This document shows positions 6,986-23,566 of a stretch of DNA of 38,720 nt, piece after piece. Every line of letters starts with the position of its first letter. Positions within the stretch are counted from its first letter, which is position 1. A program made the position numbers and the translations under genes. The notes under the pieces are model-generated. The model was not told the DNA's origin and ran no database searches. It saw only the letters and a list, made by a program, of their open reading frames with translations. This DNA comes from a virus, in the IMG/VR virus record IMGVR_UViG_3300036791_000572, positions 1-38,720 of that record. One strand, given 5' to 3'.

Positions 6986-7699
6986 TCAGACGCTGTGACG
7001 CTGCTTCTGCTCGTCTTCGTGGCCGTGCTCGCGGCGCTCGCCTACGCGATGATGCGCCGCTAGATGATGCGTCCGGTGCGCCATCGACGGTAGGCGGATC
7101 GGCGCATCGAAGATGTCGGCGGCCCAGAGCGCCGCGAGCGTGACCAGCACGACGACGACGAGCCCGAGCCAGGCGTCGAGCCATTCGCGGCGGAAGAGGC
7201 GCAGGCCGCCGGTGCCGCCGGTGCGGAGCTTCCGGTCGTGCACGGCCCGCTCGATCGTCGCGGTCGAGCAGCGCGCGTAGTCGGCGGCCTCCGCCTTCGT
7301 CAACCAGGCGGCGTCCGGGTCGTGGTGCGGCTGGATGGCCCGCGCCGCGCCGTCGGCCCGCAGGCGCAGCAGCTCGCCGGGCGGCGCCGCGTGCACGACG
7401 TACAGCTCGCCGCCGTTCACGACCCGGGCGGAGTACGCCGTGTCGACGTGCCGCCCGTCCCGGGTCAGCCATTGCGACGTCCCGCTCACCGCGCCGGTCG
7501 TCGCGAGCTGCTCGACGATCGCCGGCCGCTCGGGCTCCGGTCGCGTCGTGGTCTCCCAGGCCGACACGCCGATCAGGTCGCGAGGCCGCCACCCGAGCAT
7601 CAGCGCGACGTCGTCGCTCACCGCGACGTACCGCTGAGCGTGGTCGCAGACGACGACCCAGCGGCCCAGCAGCCGGGACGGCATCGCGCTGGTGGTCAC
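6986..7699 (-). CDS. PAS-sensor / helix-turn-helix protein with C-terminal membrane segment
   Basis: On the minus strand, against all its neighbours. With GTG 7699 as start there are 237 residues; ATG 7684 (Met6) is an alternative, since GGGGGGAGG lies directly against the GTG. Residues 12-105 read as a PAS domain: VVVCDHAQRYVAVSDDVALMLG, then W-R-P-R-D-L-I-G, then WLTRDGRHVDTAYS and GGELYVVHAAP. Residues 131-177 are an Xis/MerR-type winged helix-turn-helix (AWLTKAEAADYARCSTATIE, then LRLFRREWLDAWL). Residues 177-196 are hydrophobic enough to cross a membrane, followed by a His/Arg/Glu-rich tail of 40 residues. Its position beside the integrase block suggests a lysogeny regulator that senses a ligand, redox state or light; this is inference. 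No other repressor gene is obvious in the window. Confidence 0.75.
   Translation of the reverse strand: MTTSAMPSRLLGRWVVVCDHAQRYVAVSDDVALMLGWRPRDLIGVSAWETTTRPEPERPAIVEQLATTGAVSGTSQWLTRDGRHVDTAYSARVVNGGELYVVHAAPPGELLRLRADGAARAIQPHHDPDAAWLTKAEAADYARCSTATIERAVHDRKLRTGGTGGLRLFRREWLDAWLGLVVVVLVTLAALWAADIFDAPIRLPSMAHRTHHLAAHHRVGERREHGHEDEQKQRHSV
6995..7063 (+). CDS. Possible 22-residue membrane peptide
   Basis: A very short frame from GTG encodes one hydrophobic segment (TLLLLVFVAVLAALAYAMM) and ends RR. It follows the holin-like gene and could be a second lysis peptide. It lies entirely antisense to the 3' end of the PAS regulator, and there is no clear ribosome site, so it may be only a by-product of that gene. 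Confidence 0.25.
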   Translation: MTLLLLVFVAVLAALAYAMMRR

Positions 7700-8408: not shown

Positions 8409-8647
8409 GCGACCCGGCGCCCTTGAGCCGGGTCGGCCTGCTCGCCGACGACCTCGACGCCGTCGACGCCCGGATCGCCGGCATCCGTCGCGACGTCGCC
8501 GACTGCCGCTACCGCGCCGGCGAGCTGCGCGGCCGCGGCACCCAGCTCGTCGCGCTCGACCTCGGCCGCGTGCTGATCGCGCTCGGCGCCGCCGACCTCG
8601 CGCTCGACCGGGCCCGCCGGCACACCCGGCTCGAAGAGGCGTCGTGA
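8405..8647 (+). CDS. Small helical unknown protein before xis
   Basis: An 80-residue, mostly helical product (VGLLADDLDAVDARIAGIRR, then DLGRVLIALGAADLALDRAR) with heptad-like spacing, possibly a coiled coil. GTG overlaps the HNH stop, and its own stop overlaps the GTG of the Xis-like gene, so it belongs to the integration operon. No family recognised. Confidence 0.6.
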   Translation: MSDPAPLSRVGLLADDLDAVDARIAGIRRDVADCRYRAGELRGRGTQLVALDLGRVLIALGAADLALDRARRHTRLEEAS

Positions 8648-8871
8648 CGGGCCCGCCCGAGTTCCTGACCGTCGCCGAGGTCGCCGCGCTCTGGCGCGTG
8701 TCGCCGCGCACCGTCCGCCGCATGGTCGGCGACGGCACCCTCCCCTTCATCCAGCTCGGGCCGCGCACGACCCGGATCCGCCGCGACGTCGCCGAGGCCG
8801 CGATGCACGGCGACGCGCCGCGAGCTACGATGGCCGCTGTCCATTATCTAGACAGAAGGAGTCACCCGTGA
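8644..8871 (+). CDS. Excisionase-like helix-turn-helix protein (Xis/RDF candidate)
   Basis: A 75-residue protein of the MerR/excisionase HTH_17 type: EFLTVAEVAALWRVSPRTVRR, then VGDGTLPFIQLGPRTTRIRR forming the wing. Proteins of this size beside an integrase usually act as the recombination directionality factor that turns integration into excision. The stop overlaps the integrase GTG. The HTH resembles the one in the PAS regulator 1 kb upstream. Whether it controls direction of recombination or transcription cannot be told from sequence. Confidence 0.75.
   Translation: MTGPPEFLTVAEVAALWRVSPRTVRRMVGDGTLPFIQLGPRTTRIRRDVAEAAMHGDAPRATMAAVHYLDRRSHP
8837..8855 (+). promoter_or_regulatory. Inverted repeat upstream of integrase
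   Basis: CTGTC (8837-8841) and GACAG (8851-8855) flank the AT-rich nonamer CATTATCTA in otherwise very GC-rich DNA, just before the integrase ribosome site AAGGAG. It could bind Xis or Int, or be part of an att site or promoter. The xis coding region continues through it. Confidence 0.35.
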
Positions 8872-10097
8872 CCACCAGCACGGAACCCGTTCTGCTCGAC
8901 GGCGTCGAACGCTACGGCGCCGGCTACCGAGTCAGGATCCGCTTCCCGAAGCACCTCGTACCGTCCGGCCGCCACATCGAGACCGTGCGGACGAATCCCG
9001 CGCTCCGCACACCCGGCGGCGCGAACGCCCGCGCGCTCGCGCTCGTCGAGCTACGCGAGGCCGGCGTGTCGCCGATCGTCGCCGCCGCCCAGGGCCGCAC
9101 CCTCGCCGACGCGACCGGCGACTTCCTACGCCGCAAGAAGGTCTCCGGTCGCAACCGGCAGCTCCGCCGCCGCGGCGTCGAGTTCTGGGAGCGGTCGTGT
9201 CGGCCGTGGCTCGAAGGCGAGCACGCCTCGACGCCGCTGTCGCTGCTGCGCCGCGACCAGGTCGAGACCACGATCCTCGCGCGGGCGCTCCTGGCGCCGA
9301 CGTCGGCCCGGAACGAGCTGCAGGCGCTGAAGGCGACCCTGCGGCACGCCGCCGACCCGGCCGTCGACCCGTCGATCTTCACGATCGAGCCGATCGCGAC
9401 CTGCCCGCGCACCCGCCGCGCGCTCACCCTCGACGAGCTAGACCTGCTCGCCGCGTGCGCCCCGGACTACGCCCGCCGCCTCGTCTGGATCCTCGGCACC
9501 GCCGGCTTCCGTGTCGGCGAGCTGTTCACGCTGACCGACGACCGGCTCGACCTTCACAGTGAGGCGCCGGCGGCGGTCGTGACCGCCGAGCTGGCGAAGG
9601 AGCGGCTGCCGAAGCGCGTAGCGTTCGACACCGACCAGGTGCAGGTCGTGCGCGAGCAGCTGATGGCACGCGCCCCGGGCACCCGGCTCGTCTTCGCGAC
9701 GAAGACCGGCAAGGCGTGGACGTACCGCCAATTCCACAAGCTCGTCTGGAAGAAGACGACGCACCGGGCCGCGCAGATCTGGCGGCACGACCGCGGGCTC
9801 GACGAGCACGCCGCGACACCGTTCGACGACCTGAAGCCGCACGACCTCCGCTCAACCGCAGCGACGCTGATGCGCGAGGCCGGGTTCACGCGGGAGGAGG
9901 CGGCCGACCGGCTCGGGCACGTCGACTCGGGCGAGCTGCTCGACCGCGTCTACGACCAGGGCGACCGCGGCCAGCGTGCCGCCCGCGCGATCGCGGCGAA
10001 GACGCCGGCCGGGCTCCGTGCCGCTCTAGCCGAGCGGGCGGCGCCGTCCACCAGGCCGACGACCGCCGCGCTCGGCGCACCGGAGGCTACCGCGTGA
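8868..10097 (+). CDS. int: Tyrosine integrase
   Basis: A 409-residue tyrosine recombinase. The N-terminal part holds an arm-binding-like segment and a core-binding helical domain (about 85-170). The catalytic domain shows Arg215 in GFRVGEL, the beta-hairpin Lys in AKERLPK, His325 and Arg328 in HDLRSTAA, His351 in LGHVD and the nucleophile Tyr362 in RVYDQGD. It joins phage attP to bacterial attB. GTG start has AAGGAG at ideal spacing. It is complete and should be active. Length is normal for actinophage integrases. The preceding Xis-like gene and the following early operon overlap it by 4 bases each. Confidence 0.92.
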   Translation: MTTSTEPVLLDGVERYGAGYRVRIRFPKHLVPSGRHIETVRTNPALRTPGGANARALALVELREAGVSPIVAAAQGRTLADATGDFLRRKKVSGRNRQLRRRGVEFWERSCRPWLEGEHASTPLSLLRRDQVETTILARALLAPTSARNELQALKATLRHAADPAVDPSIFTIEPIATCPRTRRALTLDELDLLAACAPDYARRLVWILGTAGFRVGELFTLTDDRLDLHSEAPAAVVTAELAKERLPKRVAFDTDQVQVVREQLMARAPGTRLVFATKTGKAWTYRQFHKLVWKKTTHRAAQIWRHDRGLDEHAATPFDDLKPHDLRSTAATLMREAGFTREEAADRLGHVDSGELLDRVYDQGDRGQRAARAIAAKTPAGLRAALAERAAPSTRPTTAALGAPEATA

Positions 10098-10282
10098 GCG
10101 CGCCCGACCTCGCCGTCAGCCGCGAGCGGATCGACTGGCTCCGAGCTGCGCTGGAGCACCTCGCCTCGCCGAACCGGAGCGCGCGGCCGACCGCCCGCGA
10201 CGCGCTCGACATGGTCGCCTTCGCCCGCGCCACGCTCGAATTCGACGCCGACCGCTACGGCGAGAAGGAGGCCGACGAGTGA
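10094..10282 (+). CDS. Small unknown early protein
   Basis: A 62-residue helical product (VSRERIDWLRAALEHL, then ARDALDMVAFARATLEFDADR) starting with GTG inside the integrase stop. No recognised motif. It opens the chain of overlapping small genes that follow the integrase. Confidence 0.6.
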   Translation: MSAPDLAVSRERIDWLRAALEHLASPNRSARPTARDALDMVAFARATLEFDADRYGEKEADE

Positions 10283-10680
10283 GCGGGCTCCGCGACACCG
10301 CCCCGCCCTTCTACTGGCGGCGCGTCTACACCGGCGCGACCGACATGGACGAGGTCACGACGTTCCACCGCGACCCCGACGGCACGCTCCGCATCGTGAT
10401 GGGCGTGCCGCGCGCATACGCGCCGCCCGTCGACGACGAGGCGGTCGTGACCGACATCGCGGCCATCGGGCTCGTCATCTACGGGCGCGCCGTCGACGTC
10501 GACGACGACCCGCACGACCACGACCACATCGCCCGGATGCGCCGCGTCGGGCAGGTCTTCTCGGAGTGCTTCTCGGTGCAGTGCCCGGACGGCGAGACCG
10601 GCACCCATCCGCTCGCCGCGGTCACAGAGATCTCCTGGGACGAGTTCGACCTGGCACGCCGCCGCGGTTGGTCGTCGTGA
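10279..10680 (+). CDS. Unknown early protein, 133 residues
   Basis: GTG start overlaps the previous stop. The protein seems to be a single alpha/beta domain, with FYWRRVYTGATDMDEVTTF at the N-terminus, a central VTDIAAIGLVIYGRAVDVDDD, then a His/Asp-rich patch (DDDPHDHDHIARM) that could bind a metal. A region with TGTHPLAAVTEISWDEFDLA closes it. No family recognised. Coupled by overlap on both sides. Confidence 0.65.
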   Translation: MSGLRDTAPPFYWRRVYTGATDMDEVTTFHRDPDGTLRIVMGVPRAYAPPVDDEAVVTDIAAIGLVIYGRAVDVDDDPHDHDHIARMRRVGQVFSECFSVQCPDGETGTHPLAAVTEISWDEFDLARRRGWSS

Positions 10681-10976
10681 CCGACCCGCGCTTCGCCGAG
10701 CCCGTCACCGGCAACGAGGTCGCCGGGCTCGCGGTCGCGTTCAAGGCGCTGGTCGTGCGCGCCGGCGGTCGCGTCGAGATCACCGAGGCCGAGCTGCTGC
10801 ACGCGCGCACACTGCTCGCCCGCGTCGAGGCCGACCCCGAGCGGATGGTCGTCGAGGTCGTCGACGGCGACCCGCCCGACGTGCCGCGGTTCGCGGCCGA
10901 GCCCGAAGCGCGCGACCCGCGCGACGCCGACGAGCCCTACCACGGCCTCGGCGAGATCGACGGAGGCGGCGAATGA
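10677..10976 (+). CDS. Small unknown early protein
   Basis: A 99-residue product beginning with GTG in the previous stop. The N-terminal half is helical (EVAGLAVAFKALVVRAGG, then ITEAELLHARTLLARVEADP), and the end is acidic and Pro-rich. No domain recognised. Confidence 0.6.
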   Translation: MTDPRFAEPVTGNEVAGLAVAFKALVVRAGGRVEITEAELLHARTLLARVEADPERMVVEVVDGDPPDVPRFAAEPEARDPRDADEPYHGLGEIDGGGE

Positions 10977-11356
10977 GCCCGCGCGTACCCGGCACCCGGA
11001 TCTCCGCCGGCGCCGGCACCCTGCGCCCCGTCGCGGTGCCCGCACCGACCAAGTCGCTCCCCGGCCAGCATCGCGCGTACCTGACCGCGACCGGGTGCTC
11101 CGTCATCGTCGCCCTAGAGCCGGCGAAGGCCGCGCCCGCCGGCATGTGGCTGCCCGAGGGCGCCCGCGACCTCTGGCACCTGTCGATCGCGCACCGGACG
11201 CGCTACCCGACCTGGGACGAGATCGCCGACGTCCGCTACGAGCTGGTGCCCGACGACGTGACGATGGCGATGCTGCTCCCGCCCCGCGGCGAGTACGTCA
11301 ACGCCCATGAGCGCTGCTTCCACCTCTGGCAGATCGACGACCGGCGGGCCCCGTGA
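10973..11356 (+). CDS. Unknown early protein resembling DUF7694-type phage proteins
   Basis: The 127-residue product contains WHLSIAHRTRYPTWDEIADV, then YELVPDDVTMAMLLPP and YVNAHERCFHLWQI. This run of motifs recurs in small actinophage early proteins of unknown function (I believe DUF7694; from memory, not searched). ATG overlaps the previous stop. The function is unknown. Confidence 0.65.
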   Translation: MSPRVPGTRISAGAGTLRPVAVPAPTKSLPGQHRAYLTATGCSVIVALEPAKAAPAGMWLPEGARDLWHLSIAHRTRYPTWDEIADVRYELVPDDVTMAMLLPPRGEYVNAHERCFHLWQIDDRRAP

Positions 11357-11535
11357 CCCGCCGCGCCCGCTACGAGGTGATCGTGTCGCGGCGCACGTCG
11401 CGCTTCACCGCCTACACGATCTACGACCACAAGAAGGGCCGCGTGCTCGCCGACCAGTCGACGCGCGACCGCCCGACCGCCGAGCGCACCGCCCGCGAGC
11501 TGAACGCCGCCCTCGATGAGGAGCCCCGTGGCTGA
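11353..11535 (+). CDS. Small basic unknown protein
   Basis: A 60-residue basic product (RYEVIVSRRTSRFTAYTIYD, then KKGRVLADQSTRDRPTAERT) starting with GTG at the previous stop. Strand-strand-helix layout with a final helix TARELNAALDEE could be a small nucleic-acid-binding or DUF fold; not recognised. Confidence 0.55.
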   Translation: MTRRARYEVIVSRRTSRFTAYTIYDHKKGRVLADQSTRDRPTAERTARELNAALDEEPRG

Positions 11536-11725
11536 TCGCGAGTTCAAGGTCACGGTCACCTTCACCGGCACCGCCGAGGTGATCGTCACGCTCTGGGACG
11601 ACGACGACGACGAAGACGCCGTCGGGCCCGACGCGGTCGAGATGGTCGAGAACGGTCTCACCTTCGCCGACGGCGACCTGAGCGGGATCGAGGCTGACGT
11701 GAGCGCCGTCGAGGAGCGCCCGTGA
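11528..11725 (+). CDS. Small acidic unknown protein
   Basis: Start set at GTG 11528 (M-A-D-R-E-F-K-V) because GAGGAG lies at the right distance; ATG 11516 in the same frame is the alternative. The 65-residue product has two beta strands (FKVTVTFTGTAEVIVTLWDD) and an acidic run. Overlaps the end of the preceding gene and the start of the next. No function recognised. Confidence 0.5.
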   Translation: MADREFKVTVTFTGTAEVIVTLWDDDDDEDAVGPDAVEMVENGLTFADGDLSGIEADVSAVEERP

Positions 11726-11916
11726 CCGACACGCTCCGCACCGTCTGGCGCATCACCGCGATCGAGCGCGGCGACCTCGGCCGGCCGATGCGCGGGCTCG
11801 ACGTGCAGCTCGTCGTCGACACGACGGCCGACGTCGTCGTCGACCTGATCGAGCACGCGGCGAGCCGCGCCGGCGTCGTGCTGGAGCGCGTCGAGCCCGA
11901 GGAGCCGACCGCGTGA
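11722..11916 (+). CDS. Small unknown early protein
   Basis: A 64-residue product starting with GTG in the previous stop: TLRTVWRITAIERGDLGRPM, then GLDVQLVVDTTADVVVDLIE. A beta-beta-helix layout is likely. No family recognised. Overlaps on both sides indicate cotranscription. Confidence 0.55.
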   Translation: MTDTLRTVWRITAIERGDLGRPMRGLDVQLVVDTTADVVVDLIEHAASRAGVVLERVEPEEPTA

Positions 11917-12503
11917 CCGACCCGCGGATCAGCGTCGGGCGGATCAGCGTCCGCGACGCCGGCGACCTCGCACGCAGTCTCGCGTTCAAGGGCGTCGAGG
12001 GCACCGACCTCCGCGCCGCGCTGCTGGGGATCGTCGACGCCGCCTACGGGCTCCGCGAGGCGCATGAGGCCGAGTGCGGGTGCACCCGGCCCGGCGACCC
12101 GGCCGCCTGCGTCTGGCCGCCCGAGGACGGCCGCCTGCTCGCCCGCTTCGACTTCGGCGACGACGACGACGGCCCTGGGTCTATTCCGGGTCTACCCGCC
12201 GGGCCGCTCGGGCCGCAACCCGTGGAGCCATGCGGGTTTGAGGGGATGGGCGGTACTGGGCTCGAACCCGTGCCCCCCAATTCGGACATAGGCGCCGGTA
12301 GCGGCACCGAAGGGCCCGAAAAGGCCATAGGTGCAGGGGATTCCGAGGATCCCGAGCGACCGTTAGCGGTCTCGACGGGGCCCGACCGGACACCCGGAAT
12401 CGGGGCCTCTGGGTCTAATCCGGGTCTAGTTCGGTGCCCGACCGGGCTCGCGTGCACCGGCTGCCGCTACTGCGAGCCGCTCTGGGAGGCGGTCGGCCGG
12501 TGA
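11913..12503 (+). CDS. Unknown protein interrupted by atypical low-complexity segment
   Basis: A 196-residue open frame in three parts. Residues 1-88 look like an ordinary phage protein (ISVRDAGDLARSLAFKGVEG, then AALLGIVDAAYGLREAHEAE). Residues about 89-172 are Gly/Pro/Ser-rich without structure, and their codons lose the strong third-position GC of the neighbours; this part coincides with the att-like element at 12177-12428. The last 24 residues are Cys-rich (RCPTGLACTGCRYCEPLW) and may bind zinc. The stop overlaps the start of the methylase. The middle part is perhaps coding only by necessity. Confidence 0.55.
   Translation: MTDPRISVGRISVRDAGDLARSLAFKGVEGTDLRAALLGIVDAAYGLREAHEAECGCTRPGDPAACVWPPEDGRLLARFDFGDDDDGPGSIPGLPAGPLGPQPVEPCGFEGMGGTGLEPVPPNSDIGAGSGTEGPEKAIGAGDSEDPERPLAVSTGPDRTPGIGASGSNPGLVRCPTGLACTGCRYCEPLWEAVGR
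12177..12428 (+). other. Candidate attP: paired arm-like repeats flanking a tRNA 3'-half match
   Basis: GGGTCTA occurs as tandem pairs 11 bases apart at 12177/12188 and at 12411/12422, all in the same orientation; the two pairs are 234 bases apart. Between them, on the minus strand, 12271-12247 reads as the 3' part of a tRNA: T-stem and loop with GGTTCGAGCCC and an acceptor strand ACCGCCC followed by A. No matching 5' half was found, so it is not a full tRNA. Phages that insert into tRNA genes carry such 3' halves as the attP core, and arm-type integrase sites are short direct repeats. It is 2.1 kb from the integrase, which is unusual. Confidence 0.45.
12339..12401 (+). other. Nested inverted repeats in att-like element
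   Basis: GATTCCG (12339-12345) pairs with CGGAATC (12395-12401), and inside it GACCG (12358-12362) pairs with CGGTC (12367-12371) across TTAG. A structured RNA or protein-binding DNA is possible. Confidence 0.35.
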
Positions 12504-13123
12504 CGCGCTACCGGACGATCGTCGCCGACCCGCCCTGGCCGGTCGAGTGGCACCCGCCGGCCGCCGGCCGCGCCGGCGGGTCGTGGCCGGGCAGCCGCCG
12601 CACGAAGGGCGAGCGGCCGACGCGCGGGCTCCCGCTCGCCTACGAGACCGCCGGCCTCGAAGCGATCGCCGGGCTCGACGTCGCCGGCGTCGCCGACGAC
12701 GACGCGCTGCTGTTCCTGTGGGCGACCCGCGCCGTGTTCCGCGAGGGCGCCGCCGCCGCCGTCGCGCGGGCCTGGGGGTTCGAGCCGTGCGGCGAGATCA
12801 TCTGGGGGCTCCGCAACCCGGGGCTCGGCGCACGCGCGGCCGCGAACGACCACGAACCGATCCTGGTCGCGCGCCGCGGCCGCGCCCGCCTCGATGCGGC
12901 CGTCCCGCTCGGCGTCGTCTTCTGGCGTCAGGTGTACGGCTACGACGAGCAGGCCCGGGCGCCGTTCAAGGTGCACAGCGCGAAGCCGGACGGGCTGCAG
13001 GATCTCGTCGAGCAGGTCTCGCCCGGCCCGTACCTGGAGCTGTACGCGCGCCGGCAGCGGCTCGGCTGGGACACCTGGGGCGACGAGGCCCTGCCGCACG
13101 TCGAGCTGGGAGCGACGCCGTGA
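12500..13123 (+). CDS. MT-A70 family DNA N6-adenine methyltransferase
   Basis: A 207-residue protein starting with GTG inside the previous stop. The catalytic motif DPPW occupies residues 10-13 (TIVADPPWPVEWH), followed by the MT-A70 layout: ALLFLWATRAVFREGAAAAV, WGFEPCGEIIWGLRNPG, HEPILVARRG, and the C-terminal HSAKPDGLQDLVEQVSPGPYLELYAR segment that binds cofactor. It should methylate adenine in DNA using S-adenosylmethionine. No restriction partner is near, so it is an orphan methylase, probably protecting phage DNA or marking it for regulation. Shorter than many family members but with all core motifs. Confidence 0.88.
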   Translation: MTRYRTIVADPPWPVEWHPPAAGRAGGSWPGSRRTKGERPTRGLPLAYETAGLEAIAGLDVAGVADDDALLFLWATRAVFREGAAAAVARAWGFEPCGEIIWGLRNPGLGARAAANDHEPILVARRGRARLDAAVPLGVVFWRQVYGYDEQARAPFKVHSAKPDGLQDLVEQVSPGPYLELYARRQRLGWDTWGDEALPHVELGATP

Positions 13124-22307: not shown

Positions 22308-23566
22308 CCACGAACGCCGACGCGATCTCCACCGCGAGAACGGCGCCGATCCCGACGACGCTCGCGCAGCTCGCGGTGCCGCTCGACTCGGTGCACCCGT
22401 ACCCGGGCAACCCTCGCCGCGGCGACGTCGCGACGATCGCCGCGTCGCTCGCCGAGCATGGGCAGTACCGGCCGCTCGTCGTGAACGAGCGGACGCGGGA
22501 GGTGCTCGCCGGGAATCACACCTGGGCGGCGGCGCGGGAGCTTGGCTGGTCGGAGATCGCGGTGACGTTCGTCGACGTCGACGACGACGAGGCGAAGCGG
22601 ATCGTGCTCGTCGACAACCGCTCCTCGGATCTCGGCGACTACGACGACGGCGCGCTGGCGGCGCTGCTGGCGTCGCTCGACTTCGACTACGCCGGCACCG
22701 GCTACGACGACGACTCGGCGGCGAAGGTGCTGGCGCGGATCGTGACGCCGGGCTCCGACACCGACCCGGGCCCGCTGCCCGAGCAGGCGACGTCGCGGCC
22801 GGGTGACCTCTGGGCGCTCGGCGAGCACCGTCTGCTGTGCGGCGACGCGACCCGCGCCGGCGACCTGGAGCTGGTGCTCGACGCCGGCGAGCGGCCGGCG
22901 TGCCTGTGGACGGATCCGCCCTACGGCGTCGACTACGTCGGCAAGACCGGCGACGCGCTGACGATGGCGAACGACGGCGCGGCCGGGCTGCCGGAGCTGC
23001 TCGACGCGGCCTTCGCCGCGGCCGCGGCGGTGCTCGCTCCGGGCGCCGCCGTCTACGTCTGCACGCCGCCCGGGCCCGACCGGCTCGCCGTGTTCGTCGA
23101 GGCGTTCCGGGCGCAGTGGCGGCCGCGGCAGTCGCTCGTCTGGGCGAAGGATCACATGGTGCTCGGGCACCTCGACTACCACTTCCAGCACGAGCTGATC
23201 CTGTTCGGGTACGCGCCGGCGCCGGGTCGGCGCGGCCGCGGCTCGAAGGGCTGGTACGGCGACCAGGCGCAGACGTCGGTCTTCGCGGTCGACCGGCCGC
23301 TCGCGTCACGGGAGCACCCGACGATGAAGCCGCTCGCGCTGATCGAGCCGATGCTCGTCAACTCGACCCGCGGCGGCGACCTGGTGCTCGACCCGTTCGC
23401 CGGCGCCGGCTCGACGCTGATCGCGTGCGAGAACCTGGGCCGCCGGGCGCGGCTGGTCGAGCTAGACCCGCGCTACTGCGACGTGATCGTCGATCGGTTC
23501 GAGCGGCACACCGGGCTGCAGCCGCGGCTCGTCGAGCAGGAGGTGGCGGTCGGTGCCGGCGTGTAG
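22304..23566 (+). CDS. ParB-domain / DNA methyltransferase fusion
   Basis: A 420-residue protein from GTG overlapping the HNH stop. Residues about 20-100 are a ParB/Srx-like domain (VHPYPGNPRRGDVATIAASL, HGQYRPLVVNERT, VLAGNHTWAAARELGW). Residues 190-410 are an N4/N6-type methylase of the D12/beta class: ATRAGDLE, DPPYGVDY at 204-210 as the catalytic motif, HEHPTMKPLALIEP-like region as SREHPTMKPLALIEPM, and VLDPFAGAGST for cofactor binding. It methylates adenine (or cytosine N4) in DNA. This fusion occurs in many phages and mobile elements beside terminase genes. No restriction enzyme is near. Confidence 0.88.
   Translation: MTTNADAISTARTAPIPTTLAQLAVPLDSVHPYPGNPRRGDVATIAASLAEHGQYRPLVVNERTREVLAGNHTWAAARELGWSEIAVTFVDVDDDEAKRIVLVDNRSSDLGDYDDGALAALLASLDFDYAGTGYDDDSAAKVLARIVTPGSDTDPGPLPEQATSRPGDLWALGEHRLLCGDATRAGDLELVLDAGERPACLWTDPPYGVDYVGKTGDALTMANDGAAGLPELLDAAFAAAAAVLAPGAAVYVCTPPGPDRLAVFVEAFRAQWRPRQSLVWAKDHMVLGHLDYHFQHELILFGYAPAPGRRGRGSKGWYGDQAQTSVFAVDRPLASREHPTMKPLALIEPMLVNSTRGGDLVLDPFAGAGSTLIACENLGRRARLVELDPRYCDVIVDRFERHTGLQPRLVEQEVAVGAGV

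Follow-up and report, generated by a model that had tools for sequence, protein, structure and literature searches.

Why should an open frame of a phage carry two pairs of short direct repeats around what reads, on the opposite strand, like the end of a tRNA? Positions 12177–12428 of the DNA analysed here raise this question. The whole stretch, referred to as the window, is 38,720 bp long and constitutes the entire IMG/VR virus record IMGVR_UViG_3300036791_000572, in which end repeats are absent. Its phage genes include those for collagen-like tail fibre, baseplate, endolysin, primase/helicase, terminase and tape-measure proteins. A tyrosine integrase of 409 aa is encoded on the plus strand (8868–10097), as revealed by PHROG and Pfam matches and by an alignment in which the catalytic residues R215, K244, H325, R328, H351 and Y362 are invariant and an N-terminal extension is visible. 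The gene of a 75-aa HTH_17 protein (8644–8871, plus strand; Pfam HTH_17, 2.4e-10) overlaps the start of int by 4 bp, and the protein is likely the excisionase or directionality factor (RDF), a role predicted for it here. According to the gene chain, seven small genes (10094–11916, plus strand) separate int from the attP-bearing gene, a 196-aa open frame (11913–12503, plus strand) that overlaps each neighbour by 4 bp, a regularity that is partly built in, as the gene-chain method favours 4-bp overlaps by design. The next gene in the operon encodes an MT-A70-type DNA methyltransferase (12500–13123, plus strand), which was assigned by the gene chain and by PHROG and Pfam matches of the query frame 12434–13123.

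The repeats lie where the sequence-only reading had placed them. Four copies of GGGTCTA in the same orientation, on the plus strand at 12177, 12188, 12411 and 12422, form two tandem pairs with 11-bp spacing that are 234 bp apart, and one more copy is found in the window at 23463 on the minus strand. The left, int-side pair (12177–12194) and the right, far-side pair (12411–12428), both of which are putative arm-type sites of the integrase, are 95% identical over their 20-mers. The window contains a single instance of two 7-mer tandems, each at 11-bp spacing, that are separated by 150–350 bp; among 300 dinucleotide shuffles, one shows this double-tandem pattern. The arrangement of the repeats exceeds chance.

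Between the pairs, the minus strand of 12241–12268 is identical over 28 bp with the 3´ end of tRNA-Val(GAC) and the first downstream bases in a candidate host. The host genomes were searched for tRNA genes ending in the core by means of a 25-mer pattern (the minus strand of 12242–12266), which matched two contigs of the genome collection, both of them from Actinomycetota MAGs and both with the match at the 3´ end of a tRNA-Val(GAC) gene; the 28-bp identity is to the first MAG. This identity bears out the tRNA 3´ half without a 5´ half that had been discerned on the minus strand, and ARAGORN detects no tRNA in the whole window. The core proposed from the letters at 12247–12271 holds as a match to a tRNA end, with its limits slightly shifted, as the identity covers 12241–12268. 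An Rfam scan of 12000–12600 returned chance matches only. The exact 27-bp antisense tRNA end (ATGGGCGGTACTGGGCTCGAACCAGTG), which is the attB sequence, occurs in 60 of 299 genomes drawn from the class of the first MAG. Several genomes contain two or three copies of this end on a single contig, which indicates that tRNA-Val(GAC) is a target for several kinds of element. Other kinds of integrase were seen at host tRNA-Val(GAC) genes (L048–L053), where, in several elements, the repeated identity continues in the direction of the anticodon, which distinguishes them from the T-loop type described here; these direct-repeat elements showed no match with the six integrases used, and they were left out of all counts.

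When the window and the host are recombined in silico, ARAGORN recognises a complete tRNA-Val(GAC) at the int-side junction and no tRNA at the other. Since the program kept calling a tRNA-Val when the exchange was shifted as far as 35 bp into the core, the position of the crossover cannot be deduced from the rebuilt tRNA alone. GCTCGAA (12260–12266), 7 bp of the tRNA T-loop and the putative overlap, is the centre of an inverted repeat in four close phages, and it is flanked by the core half-sites C (12246–12259, the left arm of the inverted repeat) and C´ (12267–12280), which are complementary at 10 of 14 positions. The corresponding values are 14/14 in L039, 13/14 in L037, 10/14 in L040 and 10 in the host tRNA itself. 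Because the half-sites form an inverted repeat around GCTCGAA, strand exchange likely takes place in the T-loop, with both the crossover position and the overlap length predicted from the core sequence. The window-host identity stops two bases past the T-loop, and homology would therefore be lacking for strand exchange at the anticodon.

Free, unintegrated relatives were reached through the integrase alignment and the core. In the phage collection, a similarity search with the stretch returned just two partial matches (E 0.1), and tblastn with the integrase and with the 196-aa frame returned none; in IMG/VR, single-protein scans with the same two queries yielded no confirmed relative, and a 32-mer of the core plus flank had no match. 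The integrase alignment scan of IMG/VR gave six loci (L037, L038, L039, L040, L041 and L042), with L038 and L039 being the two ends of one contig. A second integrase alignment added L059, its two other loci being the contigs of L037 and L040. Of the six contigs retrieved with the 23-bp core, three had been reached before and three were new (L062, L063 and L066); as the new ones were found via the core, their cores are no independent evidence, whereas their arms are. The integrases are 66% (L037), 64% (L040) and 48% (L059) identical to that of the window, and free relatives with a 64–69% identical integrase have the same tRNA-Val core.

Eight free contigs (L037, L039, L040, L042, L059, L062, L063 and L066) share the plan of the window, such that 11-bp tandem pairs flank a core resembling a tRNA 3´ end in all nine free attPs. 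The arm words vary among them (GGGTCTA, GCGTCTA, TGTCCA, TGGTCCA and others). The sequence between arms and core is near chance identity, and the distances are nevertheless conserved. The pair-to-pair distance is 234 bp in the window, L037, L039 and L066, 233 bp in L040 and L062, 223 bp in L063, 247 bp in L059 and 211 bp in L042. With arm starts set by hand in the 7-mer register, the left pair begins 86 bp from the centre of the 7-bp overlap in seven attPs and 84 bp in L042 (84–86 bp in 8/9), and 99 bp in L059. The right pair begins 147–148 bp from this centre in seven, 137 bp in L063 and 127 bp in L042, which at 10.5 bp per turn amounts to 14.0–14.1, 13.05 and 12.1 turns and places the right arms of all nine close to whole turns. 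The left arm of L059, at 9.43 turns, is off phase and counts against the reading as an attP. In L062 (5448–5476), the right arm is a GGGTCCA triple at 11-bp steps instead of a pair.

The integrated relatives show the same arrangement. The window integrase is matched in 32 of the 299 genomes of the class examined. At the six best integrase loci (L007–L012; 37–52% identity), the integrase gene is convergent, 3´ to 3´, with an adjacent tRNA gene, which is, in order, tRNA-Glu, Val(GAC), Val(GAC), Val(CAC), Val(CAC) and Ala. A tRNA is present at four of the nine weaker integrase loci that were kept (L013–L021). The G260 family, in which 7 of the 103 genomes gave a match (E 1e-20), added L043, and L041 is an integrated relative with a complete tRNA-Val(CAC). 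A tandem, defined as a 7-mer with at least 6/7 matches recurring at offset 11, ends 50–55 bp before the tRNA end in all nine integrated loci tested (L003, L007–L012, L041 and L043); the core pattern led to L003 and the integrase to the others, and four weaker loci with a tRNA (L016, L017, L018 and L020) were left out. Random segments of L007 pass the tandem test in 3.5% of cases, a background taken from that locus alone. Two tRNA-Glu fragments upstream of the integrase in G260 were considered as far ends of the L007 element and rejected; the first has its own 12-bp-spaced repeat, the second has no matching arms by eye, and neither was counted. The lack of a matching far arm pair in G260 tells against the attP reading.

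Both attL- and attR-type junctions are visible in one relative, G086. The tRNA end recurs there as a 26-bp copy at a distance of about 7.3 kb; the left pair alone is found on the int side and the right pair alone on the far side, where the core-to-arm distance is 136 bp, or 12.95 turns. One arm pair at each end is as expected from the splitting of a site of this plan. Junctions at another site would have told against the sequence-only reading, and this relative does not have them; a lysogen of the phage of the window itself was not found in the genomes searched. A further locus, L036 in G192:C32, has a tRNA-Val fragment flanked by a family arm pair and, on its opposite side, by other repeats (GTGGTAGCACG), and looks like two elements integrated in tandem.

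These observations indicate that 12177–12428 is very probably the attP of a temperate actinobacterial phage and the site at which its own tyrosine integrase (8868–10097) acts. The reading draws on several independent tests: the core is the end of tRNA-Val(GAC), the six best integrase relatives lie at tRNA 3´ ends, the plan recurs in eight phage contigs, and G086 displays the two half-sites. Arm repeats around a tRNA-end core, the plan that had been recognized from the letters, are thus found together with inverted half-sites, arms on both sides and an integrase with its catalytic residues, as in a lambda-type attP. In the lambda paradigm, the N-terminal domain of the integrase binds the arms and the catalytic part binds the core, with the DNA between them bent in phase. 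By analogy with lambda, and with the actinophage systems as excerpted in PMC3203893, PMC3706429 and PMC10865867, the N-terminal domain of the window integrase would bridge the arm pairs to the core half-sites in a lambda-type intasome, the DNA between arms and core would be bent in phase, and strands would be exchanged within GCTCGAA, with the 75-aa HTH_17 protein presumably acting as the directionality factor. On integration, the phage genome would be cut open at 12260–12266. In the resulting prophage, xis, int and the seven small genes would border the tRNA, the methyltransferase and replication genes would occupy the opposite end, and the 196-aa frame would be cut to a 131-aa product, the tail of which, as the in-silico integration shows, comes from antisense tRNA sequence.

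The position of this attP inside a gene requires a separate account. The frame stays open across the stretch while its third-position GC falls from 0.93–0.97 to 0.63–0.77, the loss of bias that had first drawn attention to it. The frame ATG GGC GGT ACT GGG CTC GAA is open through attP in six of the nine free attPs (the window, L037, L039, L040, L063 and L066) and closed in L042, L059 and L062; another frame is open in L042 and L062, and none in L059. Against dinucleotide shuffles, the Poisson-binomial P for six open frames is 0.0015, a statistic that ignores shared descent; the nine attPs are related by descent, and shuffle probabilities serve as a guide only. Outside core and arms, the identity among the equal-length attPs (window, L037, L039 and L066) is 27–56% per codon position, with positions 1 and 2 no better conserved than position 3. 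A conserved protein over residues 89–172, which would speak for coding, was sought, and the search yielded just a weak tblastn match of residues 89–186 to L039 (35%, E 5e-6) that covers the shared arms and core. As the protein is unconserved outside core and arms, the suggestion that selection acts on the DNA rather than on the protein is supported; judged from these alignments, the attP spacing and not the coding appears to be under selection; there is, in addition, a tendency to avoid stops and keep the frame open.

One conceivable reason for this tendency is that attP breaks an operon. The open frame would carry translation unbroken from xis-int to the methyltransferase and replication genes, and integration would cut the operon, part the replication genes from their promoter and thereby help lysogeny without a repressor acting on them. 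This idea is suggested by the four closest phages (window, L037, L039 and L040), which keep the frame open with 4-bp overlaps to both the preceding stop and the following start. We nevertheless regard it as rather unlikely. In L040, L063 and L066, strong terminator-like hairpins lie inside attP, between the core and the right arms, which argues against free read-through there, while the window has no terminator-like site; a terminator and promoter scan of 11900–12700 found nothing.

A further alternative is that the gene is itself a regulatory switch, in which integration changes the product from 196 to 131 aa and so stabilises lysogeny. As described in the excerpts of PMC4557955 and PMC9934374, integration-dependent immunity of the BPs type likewise has attP within an ORF that is truncated by integration, and in BPs and its relatives this ORF is the repressor (PMC4557955), of which the window ORF shows no sign. 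The truncation at the in-silico int-side junction fits such a switch, but the protein does not: the whole 196-aa ORF has no Pfam or PHROG match, residues 1–88 have no Pfam match and belong to no DNA-binding family, and neither the N-terminal nor the C-terminal part has relatives among all loci analysed (best E 0.16). Moreover, the C-terminus WEAVGR is unlike an ssrA-type tag, and the HTH proteins of the phage are located elsewhere. We consider a switch of this kind very improbable.

The distance from int was noted at the outset as unusual, and the left arm is indeed 2079 bp from the int stop. The attP could therefore be a relic, an old site left behind by an integrase that now uses another nearer its gene. 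The gap is 8–648 bp in six relatives (L066, 648; L040, 636; L062, 313; L037, 311; L059, 12; L039, 8), and the arm of L042 starts at –36 bp. In contrast, L063 has an equally wide gap (2310 bp), and that of integrated L041 is about 1.4 kb. The family range of –36 to 2310 bp means that 2.1 kb does not disqualify an attP, and with this precedent the distance is real but less exceptional than supposed. Since the arms and core of the window are intact, with exactly the spacing of the family, and the free relatives closest in integrase use the same tRNA-Val core, we give a relic very little credence. The interval looks like a place of gene gain and loss, because, for two of its small genes (10677–10976 and 11722–11916), homologs are located on the upstream side of int in L037 or L038. 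That the stretch is ordinary coding sequence, tRNA-like and repetitive by chance or protein selection, is scarcely credible: the open frames and the weak L039 match would fit it, but no codon pattern exists outside arms and core, and the geometry recurs with other arm words and in another frame or none, its conservation beside related integrases being decisive.

The preferred reading, an attP serving the integrase of the window, has close parallels in actinophages. According to the excerpts of PMC3706429, the Cluster J mycobacteriophages Omega and BAKA also have a tyrosine integrase with attP 3´ of int and a core that is a tRNA 3´ part between direct arm-type repeat pairs; theirs is a 44-bp core about 100 bp from int that matches tRNA-Leu, whereas that of the window is a 28-bp identity with tRNA-Val(GAC), 2.1 kb away and inside an open frame. 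In Cluster K, as far as the excerpts of PMC3203893 describe it, CrimD and Pixie have arm-type repeat pairs around the core, and phages whose integrases are related can have different arm words, as is the case here. The right-hand triple of Pixie resembles that of L062, and a CrimD stem-loop lies between core and right arms as in L040, L063 and L066. In contrast to the window, attP lies 5´ of int in Cluster K, and the right pair of CrimD is inverted. Phages with tRNA-dependent lysogeny share the tyrosine integrase, the paired arms and the tRNA target, but do not rebuild the tRNA and carry their own, according to the excerpts of PMC10865867; in the window, the tRNA is rebuilt in silico and ARAGORN finds none of its own. 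Within these sources, both paired arms around a tRNA core 3´ of int (Omega type) and attP inside an ORF (BPs type) are known, and the site in the window is thus of a familiar type, its location being what is unusual. In the portion of the open-access literature covered, we saw no attP parted from int by several genes in a non-regulatory, translated-looking frame, and we do not claim that it is unreported; no literature on attP with Thermoleophilia was found, a class name that is only a guess.

The tRNA-Val(GAC) of uncultured Actinomycetota thus offers a testable integration target. The nine attPs form a natural series with conserved geometry and with arm words that vary from one related integrase to the next, and they provide data for deciphering the code by which tyrosine integrases recognise arms and for testing the helical-phase rule of the intasome. 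They also show that an attP need not adjoin int, and that finders restricted to the vicinity of int will miss such sites.

Two further observations concern other parts of these genomes. In L039, at about 1130–1520, the peptide LADSNGC(K/N) is repeated in neighbouring frames, a repeated DNA segment that resembles a tRNA end. In the window, 6986–7699 on the minus strand, opposite to its neighbours, encodes a 237-aa protein with PAS-like and HTH_17 parts, possibly a sensor-type phage regulator.
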